Assembly (NCBI GenBank): GCA_040753795.1
Contig: JBFMDX010000001.1
Coordinates: 1-64,000, forward strand
Source: Thermodesulfobacteriota bacterium
GTDB lineage: Bacteria > Desulfobacterota > Desulfobacteria > Desulfobacterales > Desulfosudaceae
Direction: 5' to 3'
DNA length: 64,000 bases
Part shown: positions 6,851-47,173 of the stretch, in pieces
Numbering within the stretch: the first letter of the stretch is position 1
Layout of the letters: every line of letters starts with the position of its first letter
Notes under the pieces: model-generated
The model's input: only the letters and a program-made list of their open reading frames with translations
Database searches by the model: none
What the model was told of the DNA's origin: nothing
Made by a program: the position numbers and the translations under genes

Positions 6851-7055
6851 TCTCGAAAAAAGCCGTTTTGTTCGCTCCCCGATCATTTTGGGCGGTCTCA
6901 ACGTCCCTGGCTGAATTTCTCGAACTCGGGCTGTTCATTAGGTCATGAAATGTCCGGGCTTCACCCTCGGACAGCGAGAAATTCTTTACGCCAGGGACCT
7001 TGAGCCCTTTCTCCCCAAAATGATCGCAGGTCGCTCACAAAAGACTTTTTCCGAG
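6851..7055 (+). repeat. Long imperfect hairpin A (cassette-hairpin family, + orientation)
   Basis: About 205 bp forming one long interrupted hairpin. The outer arms pair (CTCG-AAAAAG..., TTTTGT, GATCATTTTGGG on the left; CCCAAAATGATC, GCTCAC, CTTTTTCCGAG on the right), then CCCTGGC/GCCAGGG, then the family core: AATTTCTCGAACTCGGGCTG at 6914-6933 and CCCTCGGACAGCGAGAAATT near 6964-6983. The arms and apical loop match copies E and G in reverse orientation. It lies 3' of the gene at 7241-7762 on that gene's strand. Apparent reading frames inside it (for example 6945-7166) are translations of the repeat. Confidence 0.85.
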
Positions 7056-7223
7056 CCCGTCAGCCGTCAGCTCCGGCAACTTGTCAACCCTCTTGCCACA
7101 CACGATGCAACGTCCGGCAGCCAGAGGCAGCCAAGGTTTCCGCTGACTTGCTTTAAAGACGGTTAATGCTCATTTTTCCTAGTTTGTCCAAAAAGCCAGC
7201 CTGGCGATCCTTTTGCGCTGAAT

Positions 7224-7233
7224 GGTTAGCCGG
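7224..7233. other. Boundary-like site GTTAGCCG, 3' side of the 7241-7762 gene
   Basis: GTTAGCCG at 7225-7232 lies 9 bases beyond the stop of the minus-strand gene 7241-7762, and its exact inverse CGGCTAAC lies at 7787-7794 just before the start codon. In integron cassettes the core site at the gene's 5' end (GTTRRRY) is complementary to the inverse core at the start of its attC. On the gene's strand this side reads GGCTAAC followed by CATTC, also attC-like, but a matching second half is not evident. A suggestive resemblance only. Confidence 0.35.
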
Positions 7234-7240
7234 ATCCACT

Positions 7241-7762
7241 CTATTTTATACTGAGCCATAAAAAAGCAAAAAAATGTTTCACCCCGTCTTTTTCATAGAT
7301 CGTTAACTTTTCATGTGACGCACTTAAAACATTTAAACCATAGGAATTTAGTTCTTTGTTTATCTTTTCAACTGTGGCTGTGCCAAATACAGCATTGTTA
7401 ACCGCATCACGCAATGCAATCACTTTAGGATTGTGCATGTTCTCGGCTGATCTTAATGCTGCCTCAAGTTCAGTTGGATTGTTTTTTTGTAGCAGAGACA
7501 ATATTTCATTTTCAAATACAGAATCATCCAGCAATTCAACTACGAACAGGCTTGTTAACTGATTTAGCTTGCCTTCTTTTTTTAATTCCTCCAATGCCCC
7601 CGCAAGAAGTTTGTGCCCCACCTCGGTTGATGAATAATATTGAAGGATACATAATGAATCAAAACCTGATTGTTGAACTTCCCAGCCTGCAAATGCAATA
7701 TTGGCTTTAAAATGGAGAAGAATAACGAGCAATACAATATATCGAATTGGCCTCAAATTCAT
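7241..7762 (-). CDS. Secreted hypothetical protein, hairpin-bounded cassette 1
   Basis: I do not recognise this 173-residue protein. It has a classical signal peptide (residues 1-25, hydrophobic IVLLVILLHF, likely cut after AFA) and a mostly helical, Lys/Glu/Leu-rich mature part, suggesting export to the periplasm. The gene is visibly richer in A+T than its neighbours, suggesting acquisition. It is bracketed by hairpins A (3' side) and B (5' side), and closer in by an inverted 8-mer, GTTAGCCG/CGGCTAAC. A weak GAGG (CGAGGATTAATT then ATG) precedes the start. It looks like a mobile-cassette gene rather than a housekeeping one. Confidence 0.7.
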   Translation of the reverse strand: MNLRPIRYIVLLVILLHFKANIAFAGWEVQQSGFDSLCILQYYSSTEVGHKLLAGALEELKKEGKLNQLTSLFVVELLDDSVFENEILSLLQKNNPTELEAALRSAENMHNPKVIALRDAVNNAVFGTATVEKINKELNSYGLNVLSASHEKLTIYEKDGVKHFFAFLWLSIK

Positions 7763-7786
7763 AATTAATCCTCGTAAACTCGTTAA

Positions 7787-7794
7787 CGGCTAAC
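7787..7794. other. Boundary-like site CGGCTAAC, 5' side of the 7241-7762 gene
   Basis: Exact inverse of GTTAGCCG at 7225-7232. On the gene's strand it reads GTTAGCC about 25 bases before the ATG, which resembles (one mismatch) the GTTRRRY core that starts an integron cassette. It also forms a small palindrome with GTTA at 7782-7785. Confidence 0.3.
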
Positions 7795-7838
7795 AATGAA
7801 ATTATATCGCAGGGCACAGTTGTCCAAAACAATCTGAC

Positions 7839-8020
7839 CTCGTGGGAAGGCGTTGGTGTGAGCGCCTTTTGAGCCGTTGGGGGAAAAGCGGGTTTAAGCC
7901 GTCTGCGTCAAGAATTTCTCGCTGTCTGAGGGCGTCAGCCCGAGTTCGAGAAATTGACGCAGACGGTTTAAACCCGCCCCCAAAAGGCTCATGGCGCGAA
8001 TAACAATGCCTTTCCGCGAG
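7839..8020 (-). repeat. Long imperfect hairpin B (cassette-hairpin family, - orientation)
   Basis: About 182 bp: outer arms CTCGTGGGAAGG/CCTTTCCGCGAG, then GTGAGCGCCTTTTGAGCC with GGCTCATGGCGCG, then GCGGGTTTAAGCCGTCTGCGTC pairing with GACGCAGACGGTTTAAACCCGC in two shorter blocks, then the core AATTTCTCG...CGAGAAATT. The apical loop is shortened to a GGGC-GTCA-GCCC tip. Orientation is opposite to A. Arms match those of D and F in reverse. It lies 3' of the GNAT gene on that gene's strand and is followed by the 66-bp tail at 8021-8086. Confidence 0.85.
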
Positions 8021-8086
8021 ACATCTCAATCCTCTTGCCCTCCGGGCAAGGGCAACCCCGCCAAAGCGGGGCCCGTGTCACCCGTG
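8021..8086 (-). repeat. Tail repeat attached to hairpin B
   Basis: Sixty-six bases that recur almost unchanged after hairpin C (8721-8788). They contain two small perfect stems, CTTGCCC/GGGCAAG and CCCCGC/GCGGGG. On the minus strand the tail sits between the gene end and the hairpin, so it travels as part of the same unit as the GNAT and fosX genes. Confidence 0.8.
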
Positions 8087-8104
8087 ATCGCAGGGTTGTA
8101 TTTT

Positions 8105-8527
8105 TCATGGTTCTAAATATCCGCATTCTGGAGCGCCTATTCGTGGTTGCAGTATGCCCATTGCTGTTAGCATTTTTTTGAAACCGAACTTGCGATAGAA
8201 TCCTTCCCGGCCTGGAGCTGAAAATAAAATAATATTTGGAACTTGAAGCTTGTTGAATAGCAATCGAACCATTTCTTTGCCTATTCCTCGGCCATGATAC
8301 TCGGGAAGAAGCACAACATCATATATTGCTGCTTGGTATTCACCGTCAGAGAGGGCTCTGCACAAACCTATTAACATTTCATCGTCATATGTAAAAACAT
8401 ACGCATAGCTTCTTTGAAAAGCACGAGATAACATTTCAGGATCGCGTTCACCAAGCGGTGCAAGCCTGAACACCTCTGCTGCTTTTCCCCAATCAATGTT
8501 AGTTATTGTTGTCTCATAATGTATCAT
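8105..8527 (-). CDS. GNAT-family N-acetyltransferase, hairpin-bounded cassette 2
   Basis: A 140-residue GNAT-fold acyltransferase expected to transfer an acetyl group from acetyl-CoA to an amine; the substrate is unknown. The acetyl-CoA pyrophosphate-binding loop is YHGRGIGKEM (about residues 83-92), preceded by the beta-4 strand AAIYDVVLLPE and followed by LLFNKLQVPNIILFSAPG and the terminal FYRKFGFKKM, the usual GNAT order. Base composition is A+T-richer than the flanks. On its own strand the gene is followed by the tail repeat and hairpin B, and preceded by hairpin C. GNAT genes are frequent cargo of integron-type cassettes, which fits the context. Confidence 0.85.
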   Translation of the reverse strand: MIHYETTITNIDWGKAAEVFRLAPLGERDPEMLSRAFQRSYAYVFTYDDEMLIGLCRALSDGEYQAAIYDVVLLPEYHGRGIGKEMVRLLFNKLQVPNIILFSAPGREGFYRKFGFKKMLTAMGILQPRIGAPECGYLEP

Positions 8528-8552
8528 GGCACCGTTGGCCGTAAAATCTGAC

Positions 8553-8720
8553 CTCGCGGGAAGGCGTCGGGGTGAGCGCCTTTTGAGCCGTTGGGGTTAC
8601 GCGGGTTTAAACCGTCTGCGTCAAGAATTTCTCGCTGTTTGAGGGCGTCAGCCCGAGTTCGAGAAATTTAAACCCGCCCCCAAAAGGCTCATGGCGCGAA
8701 CAACACAGGCCTCCCGCGAG
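8553..8720 (-). repeat. Long imperfect hairpin C (cassette-hairpin family, - orientation)
   Basis: About 168 bp, the shortest complete copy. Outer arms CTCGCGGGAAGG/CCTCCCGCGAG, then GTGAGCGCCTTTTGAGCC/GGCTCATGGCGCG, GCGGGTTTAAA/TTTAAACCCGC, then the core AATTTCTCG/CGAGAAATT with a GGGC-GTCA-GCCC tip. Compared with B, one arm has lost the GACGCAGACGG block. It lies 3' of the fosX-like gene on that gene's strand and is followed by the same tail repeat. Confidence 0.85.
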
Positions 8721-8788
8721 ACCTTTTTCAATCCTCTTGCCCTTCGGGCACGGGCAACCCCGCCAAAGTGGGGCCCGGGCCACCCGTG
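8721..8788 (-). repeat. Tail repeat attached to hairpin C
   Basis: Second copy of the 66-bp tail at 8021-8086, with a few substitutions (CTTGCCCTTCGGGCACG and CCCCGCC/GTGGGG stems). The stop codon of the fosX-like gene (8728-8730) lies inside it, so the last 20 or so residues of that protein are encoded by the repeat. Confidence 0.8.
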
Positions 8789-9180
8789 TATTTTAATAGC
8801 CGATCATTTAACGTTCCAGTATGCAATTCGAATAAATGATTATCGAAATCGTAAAAATAGACAGAACGAGACTCGCCTTCAATCCGTGGGCGACCTTCAA
8901 ATACTTCCAAGCCAGCTTTCCGAATTTTGTTTATACAATCGGCAATATCAGCTTCTGCCACTTTAAAAGCCACGTGATTATAAGTTCTTTCTGACAGAGG
9001 GTCTCCCTCCATAATCGCGATCCAAATTCCGCCAATTAGAAAAAATTTTTCATATGCAACTGAAAAATTCATTTTTGAACTGTCATATATTTCTTCAGCA
9101 TTGAAAACGGAACGAAAAAGCTCGGCACTCTGCTTAACGTTTTTTACGATGAAAGTAATATGGCTTATTGACTCTATCAT
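8728..9180 (-). CDS. fosX: FosX-type fosfomycin hydrolase (VOC family), hairpin-bounded cassette 3
   Basis: Metal-dependent enzyme of the vicinal-oxygen-chelate fold that in characterised homologues opens the epoxide of fosfomycin with water. The three metal ligands are where FosX has them: His7 (ISHITF), His69 (TYNHVAF) and Glu118 (NHLFELH), and the FosX-specific general base Glu44 (AYEKFFL) is present, which separates it from FosA and FosB. Strong landmarks are IMEGD and ERTYNH near residues 57-69 and YFYDFDNHLFELH near 108-120. The usual protein ends about residue 133; here a Gly/Pro-rich extension (to residue 150) is read from the tail repeat. Activity is inferred. The gene is A+T-rich and lies between hairpin C and a hairpin remnant. 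Confidence 0.88.
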   Translation of the reverse strand: MIESISHITFIVKNVKQSAELFRSVFNAEEIYDSSKMNFSVAYEKFFLIGGIWIAIMEGDPLSERTYNHVAFKVAEADIADCINKIRKAGLEVFEGRPRIEGESRSVYFYDFDNHLFELHTGTLNDRLLKYTGGPGPTLAGLPVPEGQED

Positions 9181-9190
9181 TTTACCTTAA

Positions 9191-9219
9191 GAGCGCGAAC
9201 AACAGCGCCTTCCCGCGAG
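9191..9219 (-). repeat. Remnant of a cassette hairpin (outer right arm only)
   Basis: GCGCGAACAACAGCGCC and TCCCGCGAGAC match the right outer arm of hairpins B and C (GCGCGAACAAC...CCCGCGAGAC). No core or left arm is present. It lies 10 bases upstream of the fosX-like start and marks the outer end of the cassette stretch next to vapBC. Confidence 0.6.
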
Positions 9220-9237
9220 ACCGCATTTTGAGAACCC

Positions 9238-9594
9238 CTAAAATTTAATGCGCAGGCTATGAGCGGCCTGCGCCAGCTTTTTGTCCAGCGTCCAGACAGG
9301 GACTCCCGTCAATACGGCGGATGCCAACAGATGGACATCCACAAAGCCTATGCCTTTCCCCATTAACCGATGGCGCTCAATAAAAGTTAAGACTTCCTCG
9401 TTATCGGCTTCAACGGTCATGGGCAACAGGCGCAGAGAAGAAAGAATAGTCGCTCTGTCCGTAAGGTTTCCGCAGGCCAGCTCTCCTATGATGAAGGGGT
9501 GACACATGACGCTTCCTTCATCCAGCAGCGCGGCCAACCCGGCGTTTCCGTCCCGAAAATGTGAAACCCAGACCGAAGTATCCACCAGGACCAT
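9238..9594 (-). CDS. vapC: VapC-type PIN-domain toxin
   Basis: PIN-domain ribonuclease of a type II toxin-antitoxin pair; relatives cut tRNA or rRNA. The 118-residue protein has the PIN acidic residues: Asp5 (VLVDTSVWV), Glu near 40 (IIGELACGN), Asp near 84 (FVDVHLLASAVL) and Asp near 102 (WTLDKKL). It starts 6 bases after the antitoxin stop, so the two are co-translated, antitoxin first. It lies next to the hairpin-cassette stretch, a common place for stabilising toxin-antitoxin modules, but no hairpin separates it from the antitoxin. Confidence 0.9.
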   Translation of the reverse strand: MVLVDTSVWVSHFRDGNAGLAALLDEGSVMCHPFIIGELACGNLTDRATILSSLRLLPMTVEADNEEVLTFIERHRLMGKGIGFVDVHLLASAVLTGVPVWTLDKKLAQAAHSLRIKF

Positions 9595-9600
9595 GGCTTA

Positions 9601-9792
9601 TCATGCCCCTTTTCTTCTGGGTATCGCTTTCAACTGCTTCTGGGTCCCGCCCAGTTTGGCCAGCCGCCGGGCGCTTTCTCTGGCAATCAGTGCCTCCAGG
9701 CCGAGTTTCACCAGTGTTGTCTTTTCCTTTATGCCCGTCATACGGGAGGCTTTTTCCACCAGGTCGTCTTCGATATTCAGCGTTGTTCTCAT
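9601..9792 (-). CDS. vapB: VapB-type antitoxin
   Basis: Sixty-three residues with a ribbon-helix-helix-like start (MRTTLNIEDDLVEKASRMTG) followed by KTTLVKLGLEALIARESARRLA, the pattern of short VapB antitoxins (DUF2191 type) that bind their own promoter and neutralise the PIN toxin through the C-terminal tail. It directly precedes vapC. The upstream region 9793-9866 contains the A+T-rich repeats TATGCAT/ATGCATAT (near 9833), a candidate operator. Confidence 0.88.
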   Translation of the reverse strand: MRTTLNIEDDLVEKASRMTGIKEKTTLVKLGLEALIARESARRLAKLGGTQKQLKAIPRRKGA

Positions 9793-9866
9793 ATACGTAC
9801 CTCATACAATTATGATGCCTTAATATGCATTATTCGTGCATATATGTCAAACCGCCCGGACGTTCC

Positions 9867-10436
9867 CTACCGAACCACTTCCTTTTTTATCACCACGCAC
9901 CCCTTTCCCGCGGGCATGAGAAATATCTTCAGCGTCCCGCCATCCAGCAGAACAATATCGTTCTTCAGCACGCCGATCCGCTTTAGGTCCTTGAATACGA
10001 TCTTTTCCATGTCCTGGGGGCTCCGGTCGACATATTCCACCGTGTCATACACCGCGTCCTGGTTGGGAAAAAAACTGGCGCTGGCATAGCACATGGATTT
10101 GTCCGGCCGGACGACCTCAAGGGAGGTGGAAAAAACATGCTGGTCGGGCAGTGGATGAACCGGGAAAAGAAAAGCGCCGCTCTGGTTGCCGGCGGTAAGA
10201 AAATTGACCACCTGGTTGATGCGGCCGGCGCTGGAAAGCACGCCCATGCCCACCGCCTGCTGGGTGATCGAGTTTACCGCCGGTCCGGCCGGCTGGGGAG
10301 GAACCGCGTCGGTCTTGTTGCGGGAAGCTTCCGTCTTCGGTTGCGCCGGCGCTTCGTTTTCAGCCGCCAGCAGGCCGGGTAAGGCCAGCACTATTACCAT
10401 CAGGAAAAATACCGTCCCACGGGCCGCATTTTTCAT
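9867..10436 (-). CDS. Secreted hypothetical protein
   Basis: I do not recognise a family in this 189-residue protein. It has a signal peptide (residues 1-25, FFLMVIVLALPGLLA, cut after LLAAE), a low-complexity Pro/Ala/Glu/Lys linker (26-50), and a globular C-terminal domain with several Val/Ile-rich strands (IVFKDLKRIGVLKNDIVLLDGG, KIFLMPAGKGCVVIKKE). Periplasmic location is likely. It lies 58 bases downstream of rlpA on the same strand and could be in the same operon; no ordered motif points to an enzyme. Confidence 0.7.
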   Translation of the reverse strand: MKNAARGTVFFLMVIVLALPGLLAAENEAPAQPKTEASRNKTDAVPPQPAGPAVNSITQQAVGMGVLSSAGRINQVVNFLTAGNQSGAFLFPVHPLPDQHVFSTSLEVVRPDKSMCYASASFFPNQDAVYDTVEYVDRSPQDMEKIVFKDLKRIGVLKNDIVLLDGGTLKIFLMPAGKGCVVIKKEVVR

Positions 10437-10494
10437 ATGCCGTTATGTCCTTATTTGTCTGAAATAATCGGGAGACGATCCGGAAAATGATATG

Positions 10495-11253
10495 TTATTC
10501 CGATACCAGCTTGACATTTTCAAATCCCGCCCGGTTCAGTTTTTCCAGGGCGTCTTCGCCGGCCTCTTTCGAGTCAAACGGCCCGACTCGAACCCGGTAA
10601 AGGGTCTGGGCGCCGTCTTCGGAGGTGGTGATATAGACGGTGTCGAACTGTTGTGCCACCTCGGCCCGGAGGCGCTCGGCGTTCTGCCGGCTGGCAAAGG
10701 AGCCGACCTGAAGGGAAAAGCCGGAACGGCCGGGATCATCCGTCATGGCTGTCGCCGGGCGATAATGGCTGTCCCCCTGCTGAGTTTCCGCGTACATCCG
10801 GTCCAGGGCCACGACCGCCACCCGGCCGGTGCCATTCTGGGCAATGCCCAGATACTCGGCCGCGGCATGGGTCAGGTCGATGATGCGGCCGTCCACAAAG
10901 GGGCCCCGGTCATTGACCCGGAGAATAGCCGAGCGTCCGTTCTCCAGGTTGACGACCATGACGTAAGTTCCCAGGGGAAGGGTTTTGTGCGCGGCGGTCA
11001 TACCGTTCATGTCGTACACCTCGCCGCTGGAGGTGTTTTTTCCGTGGAAATCCTTGCCGTACCAGGAGGCGATGCCGATTTCCATGAAGTTGGTGCTGTC
11101 GGTGATAGGGGCATACCGCTTGCCGAACACCTCGTAGGGATCGTTCTGGGACTTCCGGCGGGGCGGCCCGGGCGTGGCGCAGCCGGCCAGAAAACAGCAG
11201 ACGACCAGGCCGCAAAGCCAGATCCTGAAGGTGCTTCTGAAAATCAACGGCAT
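10495..11253 (-). CDS. rlpA: RlpA-family septal lytic transglycosylase-like lipoprotein
   Basis: Outer-membrane lipoprotein that binds denuded peptidoglycan and, in some species, cleaves it during cell separation. The 252-residue protein has a lipobox (LAGC, Cys about residue 25), a double-psi beta-barrel with GIASWYGKDFHGKNTSSGE and RVNDRGPF, containing the conserved Asp, and a C-terminal SPOR domain (from about residue 170, FSLQVGSFASRQNAERL...YRVRVGPF) that targets septal glycan. Domain order and length match RlpA. Whether it is catalytically active cannot be told. Divergent from the MFS gene at 11337. Confidence 0.92.
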   Translation of the reverse strand: MPLIFRSTFRIWLCGLVVCCFLAGCATPGPPRRKSQNDPYEVFGKRYAPITDSTNFMEIGIASWYGKDFHGKNTSSGEVYDMNGMTAAHKTLPLGTYVMVVNLENGRSAILRVNDRGPFVDGRIIDLTHAAAEYLGIAQNGTGRVAVVALDRMYAETQQGDSHYRPATAMTDDPGRSGFSLQVGSFASRQNAERLRAEVAQQFDTVYITTSEDGAQTLYRVRVGPFDSKEAGEDALEKLNRAGFENVKLVSE

Positions 11254-11336
11254 AAGAAATTCTCCATCTCATGGTTTACAACGTATTGAAAAATATATAT
11301 CACTGATGCTGTCAGGCAATCAATATCGGAGAAAGT

Positions 11337-12476
11337 TTGGATACCAACCGGTCCAGGGCGGCGCTGTCGCTACAGTATTTCCTGTATTTCGGGGTGCTGG
11401 GCATCTTCCTGCCCTTTTTCAACCTCTATTGCTACCATCTGGGCTTTTCCGGGTTCCAGATCGGGGCCCTGTTCTCCGTGAACACCGGGGCCACCGTTAT
11501 TTTCCCGGTACTCTGGGGCGCCCTGGCCGACCGCTTCGGCGCCAGAAAACCGATCTACGTGCTGTGCAACGTTGTCTGCGCCGGGGCCTGGAGTTTCTTC
11601 CTGTGGACTACGGACTTTCTCCCCATGCTGATCATCACCGTTTTCTTTGCCATATTCCGCGCCCCGGTCATCTCCTTCATGGAAGCGTTTTCCATGGACA
11701 TCCTGGGCACGCGGAAAACCAGTTACGGTAAAATCCGCGCCTGGGGAACGGCCAGCTTTGTCGCCATTGTCATCCTGATGGGCCGGCTGACGGATGCCTA
11801 TTCGGTCAATATCATCGTGCCCCTGATCCTGGCGGGCATGCTGGTCCAGTCCCTGGGCGCGCTGCTCATGCCGGCCGCAGGAAAGGAAGAACGGGAAAAA
11901 ACAGTACCGGTAACCGTCCTGGCCCGGAAAAAAATCGTGATCTTTCTGGTGTGCGGATTCCTGATGCTGGTCAGCCACGGCACCTATTACGGGTTTTTTT
12001 CCATCCACCTGGAGCGACTGGGGTTCGGCAACATGTTCATCGGTTTTGCCTGGGCCCTGGCGTCCATGGCCGAAATCATCGTCATGATCTCCTCCCGGCG
12101 CCTGTTTGACCGGTTTGCCCTGGAAAGCGTACTGGTCTTCTCGTTTTTTGCGGCCTGCGCCCGCTGGATCCTGATGTATTTTGCCGCCTCGGCCGGAGCG
12201 GTACTCTTCTCCCAGCTTCTGCACGCAATCACCTACGCCGCCTTTCACATGGCCAGCATTCTCTACATGGACCGGGTCAGCCCCGAGGGCGCCAAAACCG
12301 TGGGCCAGGCCCTGAACAACTCCGTCAGCTTCGGACTGGGCATGATGGTCGGGGTTTTCGTCAACGGCTATTTCTTTGATCTGGCGGGTTCCACGCCGCT
12401 GTTTCTCGGCAGCGCGGCCGTGGCCGCGGCCGGCGGGCTGATGTTGTGGCCGGTGCTCAAATCATCGGAGAAATAA
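11337..12476 (+). CDS. MFS transporter (MFS_1-like / HcaT type)
   Basis: A 379-residue major-facilitator carrier with about 12 membrane helices. The N-terminal LQYFLYFGVLGIFLPFFNLY and the loop ALADRFGARKP between helices 2 and 3 are typical of the MFS_1-like group that includes 3-phenylpropionate and nucleoside:proton symporters. A second half-signature lies near residue 235 (SSRRLFDRFALE). The start is a TTG at 11337, preceded by GGAGA at 11328-11332; no better start exists. The substrate is unknown. It stands alone, between rlpA (divergent) and an SDR gene (convergent). Confidence 0.85.
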   Translation: MDTNRSRAALSLQYFLYFGVLGIFLPFFNLYCYHLGFSGFQIGALFSVNTGATVIFPVLWGALADRFGARKPIYVLCNVVCAGAWSFFLWTTDFLPMLIITVFFAIFRAPVISFMEAFSMDILGTRKTSYGKIRAWGTASFVAIVILMGRLTDAYSVNIIVPLILAGMLVQSLGALLMPAAGKEEREKTVPVTVLARKKIVIFLVCGFLMLVSHGTYYGFFSIHLERLGFGNMFIGFAWALASMAEIIVMISSRRLFDRFALESVLVFSFFAACARWILMYFAASAGAVLFSQLLHAITYAAFHMASILYMDRVSPEGAKTVGQALNNSVSFGLGMMVGVFVNGYFFDLAGSTPLFLGSAAVAAAGGLMLWPVLKSSEK

Positions 12477-12487
12477 AAGCCCCTGTT

Positions 12488-13345
12488 CTACAGATAGCGG
12501 CTCAGGGCGGCCATGATTTTTCCGGTAATCCAGTCGGCCAGGCGCGCGGGCGTCAGCCCGTAAAAGGCAACCATCACCCGGGCTTCCGCGCCGACCACGT
12601 ACCGGATGTTCGGCCTTCCGGCCGTCAGGGCGTGGATAACGGCCCGGGAGACCTTTTTCGGCGAAAAGGCGAGTTTGTTCATCTTCTGGGGCAGCTTGCT
12701 CAACAGTCGCAGTTCAGCGGCATAGTAGTTCCGGGCCTGCGGCGGCATGCTGTTGATGAGGCTGTCGCTGCTGCTGCTGGCCTTGTCCCAGATGGGGGTC
12801 TTGGCGCTGCCCGGTTCGATCAGGACGACCCGGATGCCGGCCGGCATCAGTTCCAGCCGCAGGGCATTGCCGACGGCTTCCAGGGCGAACTTGGAGGCGG
12901 AATAAGGCCCCAGCAGGGGCAGGGTGTAGCGGCCGCTTTCCGAGCCCATGAACACGATCCGGCCCCGGGCTCTGCGGATCAGGGGCAGGAAGGCCTGGGT
13001 GACGGCCAGCTGGCCGGTCACGTTGACCTTGAGCTGCTGCTCGAACATGGCCAGAGGCACGAACTCCAGGGGGCCCTGCACACTGATGCCGGCGTTATTG
13101 ACCAGGCCGTCCAGGCCCGCGCCCGCCAGGTCCGCTTCCACTTGCGCGGCCGCCTTCCCGATGCTTTTCGCGTCGGTGACATCAATGATCAGGGGCGTGA
13201 TGGCGCCGGGAGCTTCGGCCTGGATCGCCTGCCCGTCCGCCGGTTTCCTGACGCCGGCAAATACCCGCCAGCCGGCGCGGGCAAGATCAAGGGCGCATTC
13301 GCGGCCGATTCCAGTGGAAGAACCTGTAATCATTACAGTTTTCAT
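12488..13345 (-). CDS. Short-chain dehydrogenase/reductase
   Basis: Classical SDR oxidoreductase of 285 residues. It has the NAD(P)-binding TGSSTGIGRECA near residues 7-18, an NNAG motif (VNNAGISVQG, about 85-94), the catalytic Ser in MGSESGRYT and the Tyr-X3-Lys pair in PYSASKFALEAVG (about 150-162). An Arg-rich turn after beta-2 (VFAGVRK) suggests NADP preference. The C-terminal 60 residues are longer than the minimal fold, as in retinol- or 17-beta-hydroxysteroid-type members. The substrate is unknown. It is a single gene with a divergent promoter region shared with 13470. Confidence 0.9.
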   Translation of the reverse strand: MKTVMITGSSTGIGRECALDLARAGWRVFAGVRKPADGQAIQAEAPGAITPLIIDVTDAKSIGKAAAQVEADLAGAGLDGLVNNAGISVQGPLEFVPLAMFEQQLKVNVTGQLAVTQAFLPLIRRARGRIVFMGSESGRYTLPLLGPYSASKFALEAVGNALRLELMPAGIRVVLIEPGSAKTPIWDKASSSSDSLINSMPPQARNYYAAELRLLSKLPQKMNKLAFSPKKVSRAVIHALTAGRPNIRYVVGAEARVMVAFYGLTPARLADWITGKIMAALSRYL

Positions 13346-13360
13346 GCTAATCGCCTTAAT

Positions 13361-13389
13361 TTGACATTATCCGAGTTTTCTGCTACTAT
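13361..13389 (+). promoter_or_regulatory. Sigma-70-type promoter for the gene at 13470
   Basis: TTGACA at 13361-13366, a 17-base spacer and TACTAT at 13384-13389 point toward the secreted hypothetical gene 80 bases downstream. The -35 is perfect, the -10 is 4/6. Confidence 0.55.
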
Positions 13390-13469
13390 ACGATCAGAAT
13401 TTCAGGCTGTCCTGTTTATCCTCAATCTGCCGGGTTTTTGAAATATTAACCGCAAAGGGTATTTTATCA

Positions 13470-13913: not shown

Positions 13914-13941
13914 ACTCCGAAAAAGCGTTGACGCATCCGGG

Positions 13942-14367: not shown

Positions 14368-14609
14368 GACTCCTCCCGATCCGGTGGGTGGTGTTTAAGT
14401 TCGGCGACGGGGGCCTCGCTCCCTCTGCTGCCGGCCTGCTTTTCTTCGCCGGTCGCGCGCTGGATCACCCGTCAGGACATGGCATTATAAAAAATTCGCG
14501 GGGTTGTCAAGGGCCTGCCGGACGGGCGTCACCATAAAGATGTCGCCGTCTTCAACCCGCGCGTCGTGGCTGGGCCGAACCGACAGTCGCCCTGCCGGAG
14601 GTTATGGAC

Positions 14610-16906: not shown

Positions 16907-16941
16907 TTATGCAGTATTGGCGGAGCGGGCCTTTGCGCCCG

Positions 16942-40743: not shown

Positions 40744-41749
40744 CCTTATTATATTAAAGCGCCTGGTCGATCTGCTGGCGGACGGGCAATCCGTTGCCCT
40801 GATGCTGGTGGTGGAGCAGGACGGCCCGGTCCCGGCCGGGCCGTCGGCCATGATGCTGGTGACCGGCGGCGGGGATACCAGCGGCACCATCGGCGGCGGG
40901 GCCCCGGAATATGAAGCCCTGGCCCTGGCCCGCCAGTGCCTGGCGGACGGGCGGGTCCGTCTCTTCCGCCTTCACCTGACCATGGAAGCCGGCCTGCTCT
41001 GCGGCGGCTGGATGGCCGTGCTCATCGTTCCCCTGGGACCGGATGCCGGGCCGGCGGGAAATTTTTTTGGCCGGGCCGGGGAGTGCCTCCGGGACGGCGC
41101 CCCGGTTTCCCTCCGGATCCAGTGCCATGACGAACCGGACAGCGCCGGCGCTTCCGGCCGGCCGGTGGGAGCGTCCCCCGTCCGTGTGTTCAAGACCGTG
41201 GACTGGTCCCTGTGTCCGGCCCCGGCGCCGTCTACGCAGGGACCGGCCGCATCCGAAACGTTTGTTTTCACCTTGGCGCCGCCGCCCCGTCTGATGGTTT
41301 TCGGCGCCGGCCATATCGCCGCCGCCCTGGCGCCCATGGCCCTGGCCGCCGGTTTCCGGGTGACGGTCCTGGATGACCGGCCGGAGCGGTTTGCGGCAGG
41401 GCTTTTCCCCGAAACGGTGGCCACCCGCGTCCTGCCGTCGTTTGCAGGGTGCCTGGCCGGACCGGATGCGGACGCCGCCACCTTTCTCCTGATCGCCACT
41501 TACGGCCACCGGCATGACCGGGTGGTTCTGGAACAGGCCCTGGCAACGACGGCCGCCTACATCGGCATGGTGGGCAGCCGCCGGAAGCGCGCCGCCCTGT
41601 CCGGGGATTTGCTGCGCGCGGGATGGACCCCGGCCGATCTTGACCGGGTGGACAGCCCGGCGGGCCTGCCCATCGGCGCGGAAACGCCGGCGGAAATCGC
41701 CGTCAGCATCCTGGCCCGGATGATCGCCGTGCGCCGAGATGCCCCATGA
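40733..41749 (+). CDS. xdhC: XdhC/CoxI-family molybdenum-enzyme maturation factor
   Basis: Accessory protein that binds Mo cofactor and helps insert a sulfurated form into molybdenum hydroxylases. The 338-residue protein has the XdhC N-terminal domain (about 1-100, with TGGGDTSGTIGGGAPEYEAL) and the C-terminal Rossmann part: MVFGAGHIAAALAPMALAAGFRVTVLDDRPER cut by gaps at about 185-215, ATYGHRHDRVVLEQAL and YIGMVGSRRKRAAL (about 275-288). It overlaps the MFS gene by 11 bases and mocA by four. It confirms that the hydroxylase is a true molybdo-enzyme. Confidence 0.9.
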   Translation: MTDNLIILKRLVDLLADGQSVALMLVVEQDGPVPAGPSAMMLVTGGGDTSGTIGGGAPEYEALALARQCLADGRVRLFRLHLTMEAGLLCGGWMAVLIVPLGPDAGPAGNFFGRAGECLRDGAPVSLRIQCHDEPDSAGASGRPVGASPVRVFKTVDWSLCPAPAPSTQGPAASETFVFTLAPPPRLMVFGAGHIAAALAPMALAAGFRVTVLDDRPERFAAGLFPETVATRVLPSFAGCLAGPDADAATFLLIATYGHRHDRVVLEQALATTAAYIGMVGSRRKRAALSGDLLRAGWTPADLDRVDSPAGLPIGAETPAEIAVSILARMIAVRRDAP

Positions 41750-42327
41750 GGCATGCCGCCATTATCCTGGCCGCCGGAGACTCCGGCCGCATGGGGACCG
41801 ACAAGGCCCGCCTGCCCCTGGGGCCGGTCACGGTCGTGGAGCATGTCATCGCCGTCCACCGGGCGGCCGGCGCGGGGAACATTGTAGTGGTCTCGGGCCG
41901 GAACACCTCCGCCCTGGCGGGCCTGCCCCTGGACGCCGTCCTGGTCGAGAACCCGCGGCCGGAAGAGGGCATGTTCTCTTCGGTCCAGGCCGGCGTCCGG
42001 GTCATCGCTCCCGAGACCGAGGCGTTTTTCATTCACCCGGTTGACATCCCCCTGGTGCCGGTCTCCGTCCTTGAGCGGATTCTGGAAGCCGCCGAGGGGC
42101 ACCCCGGCCGGATGGTGTTGGTGCCTGCCGCCGGCGGCCGCCGCGGGCACCCCCCCCTCATCCGCGCCGGATTGAAGGCAACGATTCTCGCGGAAAAAGG
42201 AGACGGCGGACTGCGGGCGGTGCTGAACCGGGCGGGCGTTTTTGAAGTGGCGTGCGGGGAGCCGGGAATCCTGCGGGACATGGACACCCCCGAAACCTAT
42301 TTGCAACTGAAACAGCAGTTTTCTTAA
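41746..42327 (+). CDS. mocA: MocA/MobA-like molybdenum cofactor nucleotidyltransferase
   Basis: The 193-residue nucleotidyltransferase with the GT-A-like fold. The N-terminal ILAAGDSGRMGTDKARLPLG is the phosphate-binding signature (LAAGxSxRMGxxKxxLp). Then VEHVIAVHRAAGAGNIVVVSG and FFIHPVDIPLV (the metal-binding Asp) follow in family order, with a C-terminal RGHPPLI and DMDTPETY. By likeness and operon it converts molybdopterin to the cytosine dinucleotide used by xanthine-dehydrogenase-type enzymes. Last gene of the operon; the next, at 42350, starts 22 bases on and may be read-through. Confidence 0.85.
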   Translation: MRHAAIILAAGDSGRMGTDKARLPLGPVTVVEHVIAVHRAAGAGNIVVVSGRNTSALAGLPLDAVLVENPRPEEGMFSSVQAGVRVIAPETEAFFIHPVDIPLVPVSVLERILEAAEGHPGRMVLVPAAGGRRGHPPLIRAGLKATILAEKGDGGLRAVLNRAGVFEVACGEPGILRDMDTPETYLQLKQQFS

Positions 42328-42349
42328 TACCAGCAGAACAGGAGAAGAC

Positions 42350-43339
42350 ATGGACCTTCAGATTCGATTGATGCAGTCAGAAGATGCCGCCGGGGTGGTT
42401 GAGCTGTACCGGACGGTTTACGGGGACGCTTATCCCGTCAAAAGCGTTTATGATCCCGTTGCCATCATGGCGGCTCAGGACGCCGGGGACTGCTACCGCA
42501 TCGTGGCAGTCGACGAAGGCAGGGTCCTCGGACATATCGCCTCCTACCGCTCCGCCCCCCCCAACCCCCGGTTATACGAAGACGGCCAGGGGATGGTTCT
42601 GCCTGAATGCCGCAACCGGAACATCCTGGAAGACATCTGGTGTTATTGCCATGAGGTCGTCCATCCGGAAAAAGGCATCACCCTGCGCTGGGGCGAGGGG
42701 GTCTGTAATCATGTCTTCACCCAGAAGGCCTCTCTCAAGCTCGGCTATATTTACACCGGCATCGAGATCGACCTGATGCCGGCCGCCGCCTACCGCAAGG
42801 AAAAAAGCAGCGCCGGCCGGGTTTCCTCCATCCTGGGATTCAAGGTCACGGATGATGTCACTCGGACGATCCATGTTCCGGCCGTTTACAGCGGGATCGC
42901 CTCTTTCCTCTATCAGCCCCTTCCTCTCCGGCGCCGGATCGAAACCGGCGCGGAGCCGCTGCCGGCAGACCGTGACACGGTCAGCCGGGAAGAGATGTAT
43001 GCCGAAGCGGCCGTGGCCCGAACCACCTTCATGACCCTGGGGCGTGATTTTGAAGCCCGGCTGACCGCCATGGAGGAAAAGGCCCTGGCCGCCGGCTGCA
43101 CTGTTTTTCAGGCTTTTTTAAACCTGTCCGAACCGGCAACGGTCAGCGCCCTGGACCTTCTGCGCGATCATCACTACTTCCTGGGCGGCGTTCTGCCTCG
43201 CTGGTATGACGACGACGGCATCCTGATGCAGAAGATTCTCCACGAGCCCAACATCCAGGGAATCAAGCTGGAAAGCGAAGGCAGCTGGCGGATTCTGGAC
43301 CTGCTGCTCAAGGACAGGGAATCGGTTCTCGAGGGTTAA
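42350..43339 (+). CDS. GNAT-family-like protein
   Basis: A 329-residue protein whose first 150 residues resemble a GNAT acyltransferase: IRLMQSEDAAGVVELYRTVYGD, then YRIVAVDEGRVLGHIASYRS and VFTQKASLKLGYIYTGIE (the C-terminal beta-bulge region). The acetyl-CoA loop (QxxGxG/A) is not clear, so activity is uncertain. Residues 160-329 form a second domain without a match. It lies 22 bases after mocA and ends at the terminator at 43338; it may be co-transcribed with the molybdenum hydroxylase operon or be independent. Confidence 0.6.
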   Translation: MDLQIRLMQSEDAAGVVELYRTVYGDAYPVKSVYDPVAIMAAQDAGDCYRIVAVDEGRVLGHIASYRSAPPNPRLYEDGQGMVLPECRNRNILEDIWCYCHEVVHPEKGITLRWGEGVCNHVFTQKASLKLGYIYTGIEIDLMPAAAYRKEKSSAGRVSSILGFKVTDDVTRTIHVPAVYSGIASFLYQPLPLRRRIETGAEPLPADRDTVSREEMYAEAAVARTTFMTLGRDFEARLTAMEEKALAAGCTVFQAFLNLSEPATVSALDLLRDHHYFLGGVLPRWYDDDGILMQKILHEPNIQGIKLESEGSWRILDLLLKDRESVLEG

Positions 43340-43364
43340 AAAAGGCTGTGGCACGGCCTTTTTT
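43338..43364 (+). terminator. Intrinsic terminator after the GNAT-like gene
   Basis: AAAAAAGGC and GCCTTTTTT make a 9-bp stem with loop TGTGGCACG, immediately after the stop at 43339. It ends the molybdenum-hydroxylase-side transcripts before the PurF-like gene. Confidence 0.75.
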
Positions 43365-43487
43365 GTACGCGGTCCGGCGTGGCGGATCGTGAAGCAGAGC
43401 CGGTGTATTTTCAGGCAAAAAAAGTAATGGACAAAAAGTCCCGCGGCGGGGTAAACAGGGGAAAAATCGTAAACGGGAGATGGCGTT

Positions 43488-44891
43488 ATGGGCGGCGTAT
43501 TTGGTTGTGCTTCACGGGATAACTGTGTGACGGACCTGTTTTACGGGACGGATTACCATTCTCACCTGGGAACACGGCGGGGCGGGCTGGCGGTGCGGAA
43601 CTCCTCGGGCATCAAGCGGAAGATCCACAGCCTGGAAAACGCCTATTTCCGGTCCAAGTTCGAGTCGGACCTGGCCGATCTTCACGGCCGGCAGGGTATC
43701 GGCGTGATCAGCGACCATGAGGACCAGCCCATCCTCATGCGCTCTCACCTGGGAACCTTCGGGCTGGTGACGGTGTCAAAAATCATCAACATCGAAGAGC
43801 TGGCTGAAATCGCTCTCAAGCGGAAACAGCATTTTTCCGAATTAAGCCCCATCGGCATCAATCCCACCGAACTGGTGGCCATGCTGATCTGCGAACAGGA
43901 TTCCTTCCAGGCGGGAATCGCCTATGCCCAGGAGCTGATCAAGGGGGCCTGCACCATGCTGATTCTGTCCAGGGACTGCCTTTACGCCGCCCGGGACAAA
44001 CTGGGCCGGACGCCCCTCATCCTCGGTAAAAAAGAGGGCGCCTATGCCGTGTCGTCGGAAACCTGCGCCTTTCCCAACCTGGGCTATACCGTGGAAAGAG
44101 ATCTGGGGCCGGGCGAAATCGTCCGCGTCACCTCCGAGGGATACGAGCAGTTGAAGCCGCCCGGGGACAGAATGCAGGTGTGCTCGTTTTTATGGGTGTA
44201 CTACGGCTACCCGGCCTCGGCCTACGAAGGCATCAACGTCGAGTGCGTCCGTTATCGCTGCGGCCAGGCCCTGGCCAGAAACGATTCCGTGGATATTGAT
44301 TTTGTAGCCGGCATCCCCGATTCGGGCATCGGCCACGCGGTGGGATACGCCAACGGCAAAGGAATTAATTATAAACGTCCCTACGTCAAATACACCCCGA
44401 CCTGGCCCCGAAGCTTCATGCCCCAGAACCAGGAGATGCGTGATCTGGTGGCCAGGATGAAACTGATCCCCATCGCCGATCTGATCAGGGGAAAGCGGAT
44501 CCTGTTCTGCGAGGACTCTATCGTTCGGGGGACCCAGCTCCAGGACAATGTTGAACTGCTTTTTAACACCGGGGCGAAGGAGGTCCACATGCGGCCGGCC
44601 TGCCCCGTCCTGATTTATCCCTGCCAGTTCCTGAATTTTTCCCAGTCCCGGTCTACCCTGGACCTGGCCGGCCGCAAAGCCATTTATGAAATCGAAGGCC
44701 GTGAGGACGCCAACCTGGACCAGTACGCCGTGGCGGGCACGGAAAAGAACAGCGCCATGATCGAGAACATCCGCAAGCGCCTCAAGCTGACCACCTTAAA
44801 ATTCCAGACCATGAACGACCTGGTTGAGGCCATCGGGCTGCCGAAGGAGAAGCTTTGCACGCATTGTTGGGATGGCTCCAGCTACTTTTGA
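43488..44891 (+). CDS. PurF-like amidophosphoribosyltransferase lacking the N-terminal Cys
   Basis: A 467-residue protein with full PurF architecture: class II glutaminase domain (about 1-220; HSHLGTRRGGLAV, RSHLGTFGLVTV) and phosphoribosyltransferase domain (about 250-460) with PRPP loop RILFCEDSIVRGTQL. The residue after Met, the glutaminase nucleophile Cys in PurF, is Gly (MGGVFGCAS), and the nearest Cys is at position 7, so the glutaminase half should be inactive as it stands. The variant looks conserved, not broken. It may use free ammonia or a partner, or bind PRPP for regulation. The ATG is preceded by GGGAGA. Hairpin D begins two bases after the stop. Confidence 0.85.
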   Translation: MGGVFGCASRDNCVTDLFYGTDYHSHLGTRRGGLAVRNSSGIKRKIHSLENAYFRSKFESDLADLHGRQGIGVISDHEDQPILMRSHLGTFGLVTVSKIINIEELAEIALKRKQHFSELSPIGINPTELVAMLICEQDSFQAGIAYAQELIKGACTMLILSRDCLYAARDKLGRTPLILGKKEGAYAVSSETCAFPNLGYTVERDLGPGEIVRVTSEGYEQLKPPGDRMQVCSFLWVYYGYPASAYEGINVECVRYRCGQALARNDSVDIDFVAGIPDSGIGHAVGYANGKGINYKRPYVKYTPTWPRSFMPQNQEMRDLVARMKLIPIADLIRGKRILFCEDSIVRGTQLQDNVELLFNTGAKEVHMRPACPVLIYPCQFLNFSQSRSTLDLAGRKAIYEIEGREDANLDQYAVAGTEKNSAMIENIRKRLKLTTLKFQTMNDLVEAIGLPKEKLCTHCWDGSSYF

Positions 44892-44892
44892 T

Positions 44893-45100
44893 GACGGCGC
44901 AAAAAGTGTGGTTGTTCGCACCCTGATCCTTTTGGGGCCGGCTGCCCTCATCCGCGGCGTTTCTCGAACTCGGGCTGTCCTGAATCTTTAAAATATTTGC
45001 CTACACCCTCGGACAGCGAGAAACGCTCTTCGCGGATGACGCCAGCCGGCCTTTTCCCAAAAGGCTCAACGGCGCTCACACCCATACTTTTTGCGCCGTC
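44893..45100 (+). repeat. Long imperfect hairpin D (cassette-hairpin family, + orientation)
   Basis: About 208 bp. The outer arms are perfect for 14 bases: GACGGCGCAAAAAG and CTTTTTGCGCCGTC; then GGTTGTTCGC, CCTTTTGGGGCCGGCTG and CATCCGCGGCGTTTCTCG pair with the right side through CAGCCGGCCTTTTCCC and CGAGAAACGC..GCGGATG. Core: TTTCTCGAACTCGGGCTG at 44963-44980, CCTCGGACAGCGAGAAA near 45009-45025. It starts two bases after the PurF-like stop and could also end that transcript. It is 3' of the gene at 45160 on that gene's strand. Nearly identical in arms to F. Confidence 0.9.
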
Positions 45101-45159
45101 CGGCCTATTCGCGGCGGCTTTTTACCATCGCAATCATGACGCTGTAAGAGCTTTTAGCA

Positions 45160-45849
45160 TTAAAAACTCAAATATTTCTTTTTTGATAGAATGAATTCAT
45201 TTTCTGTTTCATCAAATATATACAAGTAAATTGTGACACCATTCATTTCAGGTTTAGTTACGGCAATTTCCGGATATTTTTTATTGTTTAACCAAAAGAT
45301 CTCAAACGCCCCGCCTAAACCCTCTTCCGAATGAACATCAGAGTATTCCTCGATATCAATAGCTACGTATTTCGAAAAAGGTGCTGCTGAAATGTATGAG
45401 CTACTGCTAAGAATCTGGTATGAATTATCACTAAAAGCGTACTCGTTTACTACTGTAATTAAAAATAAAGTGATATCTTTTGATTCATACAAATAATAGA
45501 CTTTAGCTCCGGCTTCTGGCCAATATGGATGATTCCACCCATCAGGTAATTTTGCTCCTTTGATTTTATCTGATATTTTGAAAGATGATCCATAATATCG
45601 CTTTAGGTTTTCCATCTTTAGTTTCGAATATTTTGTTACAATAGATATCTCACCGATATTTTTTTTATTGTAAGACAACCAATCTTTATTGCATTGATTC
45701 TCCCACCAATCAATGAATTTAGAACAAAGGACTGAACTGCCAAGCTCTGAACTTTGCGTCTTTTCCATAGATTTTATCATTTCATTTGCATAGGGCGAGG
45801 CTATAAAACACAAAACGATCATAATGCTGACGAAAAGCTTATTTACCAT
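45160..45849 (-). CDS. Secreted hypothetical protein, hairpin-bounded cassette 4
   Basis: A 229-residue protein with a signal peptide (residues 1-21, KLFVSIMIVLCFIASPY, cut after PYA). The mature protein is rich in Tyr, Ser, Asn and Lys, with many beta-prone stretches (TLFLITVVNEYAFSD, MNGVTIYLYIFDETENEFILSKK). No family is recognised. The gene is the most A+T-rich in the window, clearly unlike the flanking genes, so acquisition is likely. It lies between hairpins D (3') and E (5') and is transcribed on the minus strand. No good ribosome site is seen at 45850. Confidence 0.7.
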   Translation of the reverse strand: MVNKLFVSIMIVLCFIASPYANEMIKSMEKTQSSELGSSVLCSKFIDWWENQCNKDWLSYNKKNIGEISIVTKYSKLKMENLKRYYGSSFKISDKIKGAKLPDGWNHPYWPEAGAKVYYLYESKDITLFLITVVNEYAFSDNSYQILSSSSYISAAPFSKYVAIDIEEYSDVHSEEGLGGAFEIFWLNNKKYPEIAVTKPEMNGVTIYLYIFDETENEFILSKKKYLSF

Positions 45850-45912
45850 TTTAATTCTACCATTGTATTTGGATAGAAAGAATCTTCACACATTCGTACA
45901 AATAAAATCGCC

Positions 45913-46120
45913 GCATTCGGTAAAGGGGTTTTGTGAGCGACTTGCGAGCATTTTGGGAAGCAAGGGGGGAAGGATTTCGGCGTAAAGAATTTCTCGCTGT
46001 TTGAGGGTGAAGCCCGGACAATTCATGAAATATTGAACAGCCCGAGTTCGAGAAATTCAGCCGGAATCATTCAACCCGCCCAAAATGCTCGGGGAGCGAA
46101 CCCAAACCCCTTCCGAATGC
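45913..46120 (-). repeat. Long imperfect hairpin E (cassette-hairpin family, - orientation)
   Basis: About 208 bp. Outer arms GCATTCGGTAAAGGGG/CCCCTTCCGAATGC; then GAGCATTTTGGG/CCCAAAATGCTC and the core AATTTCTCGCTGTTTGAGGG/CAGCCCGAGTTCGAGAAATT. Orientation is opposite to D. Compared with A, the pair GAGC/GCTC replaces GATC/GATC, a compensatory change. It is 5' of the gene at 45160 and adjoins hairpin F, 53 bases away. Nearly identical in arms to G. Confidence 0.88.
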
Positions 46121-46173
46121 TACCCCCTTGTTCATGCATGACTTCTGCTGGTGAAGAACATAGCATGCGATGA

Positions 46174-46374
46174 TGCAAAAAGCATGTTTGTTCGCGCCCT
46201 GACCCTTTTGGGGCCGGCTGCCCTCATCCGCGGCGTTTCTCGAACTCGGGCTGCGCTGGAATCTTTTCAAAATATCTGCCTACACCCTCGGACAGCGAGA
46301 AACGCTCTTCGCGGATGACGCCATCCGGCTCTTTCCCAAAAGGCTCAACGGCGCTCACACCCACACTTTTTGCA
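46174..46374 (+). repeat. Long imperfect hairpin F (cassette-hairpin family, + orientation)
   Basis: About 201 bp, a near copy of D. The outer stem is TGCAAAAAG/CTTTTTGCA, where D has CGCAAAAAG/CTTTTTGCG: a paired change of C-G to T-A. Then TTCGCGCCCTGACCCTTTTGGGGCCGG-type left arm (read in parts), TTTCTCGAACTCGGGCTG, an apical loop of about 36 bases, CCTCGGACAGCGAGAAA and GGCTCAACGGCGC. It is 3' of the L,D-transpeptidase gene, 40 bases from its stop. Confidence 0.88.
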
Positions 46375-46413
46375 CAGCCTCGGCTCGTCAGTTGTAGTGA
46401 GCAGTTGCGCGTA

Positions 46414-46908
46414 TTACGGAAGTATATCAATCGGGGTGCCTGCATCTACAAGCTTCCACATTGCGTCGATATCCGCATTGGACAATGCAATACATCCCTT
46501 TGTCCAGTTCACTCGTTGGGCGAGAAAGGAAAGCCAACTCAAGCCGTTTTTCTGCCCGTGGACCATAATGTCCCCTCCTGGGGAGACTCCCATTTTTTTC
46601 GCGCGGGCGAGATCTTGTTGGTTTGGGTAGGATACATGAAAGGCCTTGTAGTAGGCGCTATTCGATTTCTTTGAGTCGAGGATGTAGCGACCTTCAGGAG
46701 TCTTTCCATCTCCCTGCCGCTCTTTGGGCCCAGTAGGGTTACCACCGAAAACCACATGGTAGGAGGCCAGCAACTCCCCGTTTCTGTATAGGGAAAGTCG
46801 ATTCTTGCTCTTCTCGACGACAACCAGGTCGGCCTTCTCCGCAGCCAACGAAGCGACTGAATTCAGTAACAGGCAAAAGGCGAGAAGTGCGTTGAGTATC
46901 TTCATCAT
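46414..46908 (-). CDS. L,D-transpeptidase (YkuD) family protein, hairpin-bounded cassette 5
   Basis: A 164-residue exported YkuD-domain protein: signal peptide residues 1-20 (ALLAFCLLLNSVASLA), then DLVVVEKSKNRLSLYRNGELL and the catalytic half with HG (VHGQKNGLSWL) and the nucleophile Cys in TKGCIALSNADIDAMW (SxGCxR-type, here KGCIAL). It is likely to cross-link or modify peptidoglycan. ATG 46908 is followed by a second ATG; the upstream frame (to 47079) is hairpin translation. The sequence GTTAGGCTC directly before the start is an integron-core-like 7-mer (GTTRRRY). It lies between hairpins F and G. Confidence 0.85.
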   Translation of the reverse strand: MMKILNALLAFCLLLNSVASLAAEKADLVVVEKSKNRLSLYRNGELLASYHVVFGGNPTGPKERQGDGKTPEGRYILDSKKSNSAYYKAFHVSYPNQQDLARAKKMGVSPGGDIMVHGQKNGLSWLSFLAQRVNWTKGCIALSNADIDAMWKLVDAGTPIDILP

Positions 46909-46912
46909 GAGC

Positions 46913-46919
46913 CTAACAT
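46913..46919 (-). other. Core-site-like GTTAGGC before the L,D-transpeptidase start
   Basis: On the minus strand GTTAGGC ends 4 bases before the ATG at 46908, the position of the conserved 7-mer GTTRRRY at the start of integron gene cassettes. The plus strand reads GCCTAAC. No matching inverse core is evident after the stop codon at 46414, so this may be chance. Confidence 0.3.
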
Positions 46920-46965
46920 TATCTTTAGGTAGAAGATCTCCCCCTGTTGGCACAAATAAACCGCC

Positions 46966-47173
46966 GCATTCGGCAAAGGGGTTTTGTGAGCGACCCGCGA
47001 GCATTTTGGGGAACAAGGGTTGACGGATTTCGGCGCAAAGAATTTCTCGCTGTTTGAGGGTGAATCCCGGACAATTCATGAAATATTGAACAGCCCGAGT
47101 TCGAGAAATTCAGCCGGAATCCTTCAACCCGCCCAAAATGCTCGGGGAACGAACCAAATCCCCTTCCGAATGT
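46966..47173 (-). repeat. Long imperfect hairpin G (cassette-hairpin family, - orientation)
   Basis: About 208 bp, a near copy of E: outer arms GCATTCGGCAAAGGGG/CCCCTTCCGAATGT, then GAGCATTTTGGGG/CCCAAAATGCTC, then the core AATTTCTCGCTGTTTGAGGG/CAGCCCGAGTTCGAGAAATT. The left flank is shared with E (ACAAATAAA before CGCCGCATTCGG), fixing the element's edge. It lies 5' of the L,D-transpeptidase gene and 3' of the GlmS-like gene (20 bases from its stop). Confidence 0.88.

Follow-up and report, generated by a model that had tools for sequence, protein, structure and literature searches.

A widespread MITE-like hairpin family with a conserved, strand-marked tip in a Desulfosudaceae genome and its relatives

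The usual view of miniature mobile elements is that they retain nothing but the ends read by a transposase. Integron cassettes with their attC sites are single foreign genes beside imperfect palindromes that possibly fold as single strands. According to PMC4133298, Tn3-derived inverted-repeat miniature elements (TIMEs) are 262 bp long, produce 5- or 6-bp duplications at AT-rich targets, and can in pairs mobilize the DNA between them. MRSC-65-2, as described in PMC11109978, is a long-stem repeat motif occurring in diverse phyla that is thought to be selfish and possibly to act as DNA. Here we analyze a family of long hairpins in the first 64,000 nucleotides (hereafter the window) of contig JBFMDX010000001.1 from a Thermodesulfobacteriota bacterium of the Desulfosudaceae (assembly GCA_040753795.1), where seven members, A to G, were first noticed from the letters alone. 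The family is real, mobile in relatives, widespread, MITE-like (miniature inverted-repeat transposable element) and structurally unusual, its tip being the best conserved part; its role in enclosing foreign-looking single genes is suggestive but unproven. We consider it probable (around 0.7) that these are non-autonomous MITE-like elements whose arms serve as ends, whose folded tip is needed to spread, and whose facing pairs act as single-gene cassettes.

In many relatives, the tip-bearing element measures 187–191 bp and carries terminal inverted repeats (TIRs) of the GATGG..TCGTAAAAAGTC type. We scored 73 of the relatives' elements, chosen by these ends and with both flanks present, and in 34 of them the predicted position held an exact 6-bp direct repeat, with a mean of 1.02 and a maximum of 5 for shuffled flanks. 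Given these TIRs and exact target duplications, the relatives' elements are MITE-like mobile elements. By class, 29 of the 54 elements with a tip and 5 of the 19 classed as tipless have the 6-bp repeat, although one of these five (L180) proved on reading to have a diverged tip (L185 shows the same element). We also observed four stretches of 48–136 bp (L187, L206, L191 and L205, from G224, G228 or G120) with the same terminal repeats and another or no interior, exact 6-bp repeats flanking L187 and L191.

Positions are not fixed either. In genome G282 a hairpin lies between two genes; their orthologs in G229 and G683 have 11 and 12 bases between them and carry no hairpin there, and in G105 the corresponding gap is longer but lacks the tip. 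The mobility considered in the earlier note is thus supported by this empty site together with the transposition footprints in relatives. At the G282 loci (L075-L087) the outer 9–15 bp of the arms are copy-specific, yet they pair within each copy. Insertion into a ready-made hairpin was discarded as the origin of these arms, as the G229 and G683 orthologs are only 11 and 12 bases apart and hairpin-free (one junction); since a pair of adjacent copies in G282 have their outer arms in common, these belong to the element there. A comparison around hairpin D gave no empty site: its neighbouring gene is present in 12 of 19 other genomes, and the flanks examined there held neither the 1199-aa gene nor the two cargo genes.

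In all seven hairpins, one side carries TTTCTCGAACTCGGGCTG and the opposite side a variant of CCCTCRRACAGCGAGAAA, within a single long imperfect palindrome of about 170–210 bp. The TTTCTCGAACTC motif lies on the plus strand in A, D and F and on the minus strand in B, C, E and G. The positions and core orientations given in the earlier note were borne out by the sequence, where its two compensatory differences are also visible: GATC/GATC in A versus GAGC/GCTC in E and G, and CGCAAAAAG/CTTTTTGCG in D versus TGCAAAAAG/CTTTTTGCA in F. Allowing at most 2 mismatches, an 18-mer of the core occurs 67 times in the genome and its reversed control 0 times, which rules out chance. With a covariance model (E <= 0.01) we counted 73 copies in this 4.75-Mb genome, seven of them being A-G; the proposed family of seven was real in every member and too small, and C lacks part of an inner arm. 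The model was built from 42 short-loop copies from this genome, G282 and the Tobar metagenome-assembled genomes (MAGs); five ill-formed copies were kept out of its input, and C and a few more remained unaligned. Three of 90 approximate core matches lacked the 3' core (the off-family L037, the broken copy L047:7843 and L092); they were dropped, and their rows are excluded from the arm-alignment, gene-context and duplication counts. In the broken copy (L047, ~7843-7940; G000 C2:37791-37981, G000 being this genome) the 3' core of the hairpin is swapped for another palindrome (GGTAGGGGCACGGCGCGCCGTGCCCCTAC), so that one repeat is nested in another.

We refer to the strand that reads CAGCCCGAGTTCGAGAAA, also given as the CAGCCCGAGTT strand, as the folded strand. 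Read on the strand TTTCTCGCTGTYYGAGGGC-loop-GCCCGAGTTCGAGAAA from the tip downward, the element starts with a GGGC/GCCC stem closing a loop of 3–4 nt or, in some long-loop copies, an extra loop of ~31 nt. Below it come the asymmetric loop CTGTYYGA/GAGTT and a 10-bp stem, then a one-sided bulge adjoining GCGTTAAGAA and a variable 14-bp stem, followed by an A-rich bulge and a stem around CATTTTGGG. At the base, a bubble whose two sides both have GAGCGA-like letters leads into the outer arms. The best conserved part is the tip loop CTGTYYGA/GAGTT: relatives of other orders keep it, and the stem above it changes yet pairs (GTGC/GCAC, GCGC/GCGC, AGGC/GCCT, GCCC/GGGC). The 119 distinct tips comprised 13 loop and stem variants, a number that has to be read knowing that the search pattern itself fixed most of the loop. 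In G467, which belongs to another order, the same tip is found with quite different ends, and exact 5-bp repeats flank 4 of 6 copies by reading. With 6-bp duplications in one order and apparently 5-bp ones in the other, the tip could be a strand-specific structured module, shared by otherwise unrelated miniature elements because a conserved host factor recognises it, with the facing pairs as an integron-independent capture of foreign single genes in this genome; we regard this broader proposal as unlikely, but not negligibly so.

The proposed folding was examined on an alignment of 42 sequences and 28 pairs (A2). Pairing cells reached 95.0% (75.9% in shuffles), cells changed on both sides numbered 243 (78.4 shuffled) and the covariation score was 0.494 (0.142 shuffled), and in none of these did any of 500 shuffles come as high; the number of further pair types was matched by 6 of the 500. 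Sliding the partner by 1–3 columns gave a covariation score of at most 0.107, a comparison biased towards the structure, which was derived from the same sequences. The arms thus covary well beyond both controls in the kind of test that the earlier note had proposed. Of the double changes within seven families, 212 preserved the pair and 28 lost it, with 72.6 doubles expected under independence (inherited changes are counted repeatedly here). Counting once per pair and state, one-sided changes amounted to 90 G.T, 55 A.C and 105 other, and doubles to 87 paired and 26 unpaired. The one-sided changes differed along the element: the tip-proximal helix showed 36 G.T versus 11 A.C (p = 0.0003), the middle helix 27 versus 16 (p = 0.13), and the outer arms 27 versus 28, with no strand asymmetry. 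An earlier count made on the opposite strand went in the same direction (201 A.C, 110 G.T). Statistically, then, the excess of G.T over A.C marks the tip-proximal helix as folded on one strand, and the outer arms, lacking that excess, are not so marked. Selection on a folded single strand, as first suggested for the whole hairpin, is consequently supported near the tip, and the outer arms are symmetric and behave like transposon ends.

One could argue that the pairing of the arms is neutral, with template switching copying one arm onto the other and no selection on the fold. The few one-sided changes between families on A2, the symmetry of the outer arms and the copy-specific arms of G282 that nevertheless pair would all fit such a process. 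As an explanation of the whole element we find it quite improbable, in view of the conserved mismatched loops that persist in all families and the strand-specific wobble excess in the tip-proximal helix; template switching may still explain the outer arms.

The same covariation, and the one-strand wobble excess near the tip, would also be expected of a structured regulatory RNA or a terminator kept at genes, with repetition as a secondary trait. Gene context, scored with calls from a simple codon model, agrees in part: 0 of 66 scored copies have their midpoint inside a called gene, and the 65 hairpin gaps (38 tandem, 17 convergent, 10 divergent) show some excess of convergent ones over the 103 hairpin-free gaps of the same loci (65 tandem, 15 convergent, 23 divergent). 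Moreover, 10 of 11 tandem-gap copies in G282 have the folded strand antisense. In this genome, however, the folded strand in tandem gaps is sense in 17 cases and antisense in 21, and 10 copies lie between divergent genes, which also counts against this reading. In the absence of a single strand rule, a terminator or leader role is unsupported, and the placement after small genes that the earlier note had asked about gives way to copies between genes in all orientations. Added to this, the duplications and the empty site speak of insertion as DNA, and Rfam gave no family: the window matched tRNA only, and five loci searched at E up to 1 gave one match, far under its gathering score. We therefore hold a chiefly RNA-based role to be improbable. 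For replication-strand bias, 20 stretches of G066 were sampled; GC skew follows the gene strand there, and replichores could not be set.

Regarding the arrangement of the copies, 34 pairs of successive copies lie within 4 kb of each other, and 21 of them face inward (p = 6e-6 against 25%, the copies being non-independent). We examined 20 of these 21, leaving out the pair at C2:20663 and 21907, and found that 14 enclose one open reading frame (ORF) of at least 95 aa. Enclosed segments over 300 bp have a median GC of 0.39, compared with 0.573 for the pooled loci of this genome, and GC is 0.37 or lower in 11 of the 13 cargo genes compared, no two of whose proteins are alike. Among 17 proteins from facing pairs, three match Pfam families above the cut-off (YkuD, GspD N0 and OmpA), three have weak matches only and 11 have none. 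A strict string test recognized 12 D-type and 7 E-type copies, with identities of 82–93% among D-type, 82–94% among E-type and 70% between the two types. By reading, a D-type and an E-type hairpin are joined in eight inward pairs, and seven of these enclose a gene; in the window, two such D/E units follow one another, flanked by a pair of convergent genes, and in pair A/B the gene stands in the opposite relation to hairpin class. Across the genome there are three E-linker-D junctions, with a 76-77 bp gap between model matches. Facing pairs around unrelated genes fit composite cassettes; this is suggestive, and movement is unproven.

In the MITE-like account that we favour, the outer arms would act as TIRs, most likely cut and joined by a transposase supplied in trans, and this cut-and-join would have left the 6-bp target duplications (shown in relatives, not in this genome). 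The inner hairpin holds conserved unpaired segments, above all CTGTYYGA/GAGTT, between stems that statistically are kept paired and, near the tip, marked as folded on one strand. A host or element protein would bind the folded strand, as single-stranded DNA or RNA, and the element would need this binding to spread. In this genome, facing pairs of different hairpins may have been moved or exchanged as composite cassettes, each with the one AT-rich gene it encloses.

Several results weigh against this account. Near-symmetric direct repeats of 6–8 bp were at the shuffled level in 66 copies here and 17 in G282; given this level, the copies in these two genomes are old or entered differently. The 6-bp repeats at 5 of 19 same-ended elements classed as tipless make the tip dispensable for some insertions. 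Five of the 20 facing pairs have no ORF over 60 aa and one has four ORFs, direct repeats around composites were not seen by reading, and no composite was seen moving. No copies were found in G070 and G111, which represent the other two genera sampled from this family. Finally, a limited search found no autonomous parent or transposase with the same ends.

Beyond this genome, related genomes were searched as proposed in the earlier note: the model matched 80 of 291 genomes sampled from the order, where at most 10 candidates per genome were scored with stricter filters, and in the phylum 25 of 395, of which 18 lie outside the order. Among single-contig genomes (E <= 1e-4) there are 45 copies in G066, 33 in G275 (75% complete) and 9 in G185. 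The core appears in named records of Desulfobacteraceae MAGs (SURF_33, Tobar G13 and G14) and of one Desulfonema limicola MAG. The core search had matched 9 of the 291 genomes, the single matches in G065, G111, G162, G204 and G212 being judged chance by reading, as were 4 of 30 matching stretches (L097, L103, L108, L119) in the genome-contig search. A plasmid search with two elements gave no match, nor did a search of viral contigs.

This distribution allowed us to weigh candidate movers. Single AT-rich genes between folded sites recall integrons, and this genome has three integron integrases over the family cut-off (G000 C11:367-1314, C11:140302-141237 and C33:744-1676), so true integrons are also present. 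Yet the integrase is found in 37-39 of the 80 hairpin-positive genomes (a hand count with two borderline cases), much as in 135 of the 291 overall, and is thus not associated; the relatives' 6-bp duplications are a mark of transposition, and facing pairs are unlike an array with one site per cassette. That the hairpins are sites of a tyrosine recombinase and the enclosed genes its cassettes is very unlikely. Repetitive extragenic palindromes and their mosaic elements (REP/BIME), moved by a Y1 (RAYT) transposase, share with the hairpins a high copy number, intergenic places and inverted pairs, and Y1 matches occur in 254 of the 291 genomes, this one included. But these are elements of ~190 bp with 6-bp duplications, and nine of the 80 hairpin-positive genomes (G050, G101, G103, G106, G206, G235, G240, G258 and G271, some of them incomplete) lack a Y1 match, a share similar to that of the whole sample (37/291), which makes a REP/BIME identity barely credible. 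Neither enzyme tracks the copies, contrary to one idea in the earlier note, and both were rejected as movers. An ISNCY_2 transposase was rejected too: its 10 matches, in 8 of 23 genomes, never lie between two TIRs, and one TIR is near at two loci. ORFs beside lone TIRs at 7 loci looked unlike transposases by eye, no family search being made on them, and the one TIR pair ~1.5 kb apart that was examined (L203) is two short elements around a gene. Judging from the ends and duplications, the likeliest mover is a DDE-type transposase acting in trans.

The features of the window are collected in Table 1. Hairpin D begins 2 bp past the stop codon of the gene at 43488-44891. Hairpins B and C point in the same direction, and a 61-bp GC-rich repeat (92% alike) follows both (8026-8086 and 8728-8788); because of this shared flanking DNA, B and C may be a local duplication. 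A partial outer-arm copy at 9166-9221, beyond the glyoxalase gene and 61% identical to the B arm, is perhaps the remnant of a further hairpin. A PIN-domain gene (9238-9594) stands beside the small-gene cluster of hairpins A-C. Beside hairpin A (6758-6800) there is a short CATTCCGGG..CCCGGAATCC palindrome with UYCCGG-like letters, no more than a resemblance to MRSC-65-2 as described in PMC11109978.

Table 1. Hairpins, linker and neighbouring genes in the window.
Feature	Position	Strand	Tip core
Hairpin A, long tip loop	6851..7055	+	6916-6981
Gene enclosed by A and B, 173 aa, GC 0.36, no Pfam match	7241..7762	-	
Hairpin B, short tip loop	7839..8020	-	7915-7953
GNAT acetyltransferase gene, between B and C	8105..8527	-	
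Hairpin C, short tip loop, one inner arm partly missing	8553..8720	-	8628-8666
Glyoxalase-superfamily gene adjoining C	8728..9180	-	
Hairpin D, D-type	44893..45100	+	44960-45023
Gene enclosed by D and E, 229 aa, GC 0.33, no Pfam match	45160..45849	-	
Hairpin E, E-type	45913..46120	-	45990-46055
Linker joining E and F	46121..46173	none	
Hairpin F, D-type	46174..46374	+	46236-46302
YkuD (L,D-transpeptidase) gene enclosed by F and G, GC 0.51, 163 aa with the start used here	46414..46905	-	
Hairpin G, E-type	46966..47173	-	47043-47108

The earlier note took the element to be previously undescribed, which agrees with the Rfam searches. Among the papers listed in literature searches, we recognised none as describing it (the supplements of PMC10969869 and PMC11109978 might list it), and none of those listed held the 18-letter core, although any paper holding it would rank first. 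As described in PMC10969869, bacterial MITEs such as Chunjie of Geobacter uraniireducens and QMITE2 of Coxiella are likewise short, non-coding elements in high copy, with TIRs, target direct repeats and a stable fold. The hairpins differ from them in that conservation across and beyond the order concerns the middle rather than the ends, this middle having an asymmetric loop and strand-specific wobble, and in that a limited search found no parent insertion sequence. MRSC-65-2 resembles them in its long covarying stem and its dozens of copies per genome, and has UYCCGG as conserved repeat in place of CUGUYYGA/GAGUU (PMC11109978). TIMEs (PMC4133298) offer a precedent for two miniature elements mobilizing the DNA they enclose, whereas we only infer such composite movement here; their ends are the 38-bp ones of the Tn3 family. 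In the present family the middle exceeds the ends in conservation, is found with different ends and is marked as a folded single strand, so that what miniature elements need beyond their ends becomes testable. Compared with integron cassettes, each gene here has two different facing hairpins, integrase presence is unassociated, and relatives show 6-bp duplications; if the AT-rich genes enclosed by hairpins do move as units, they would represent a route of single-gene exchange outside integrons.

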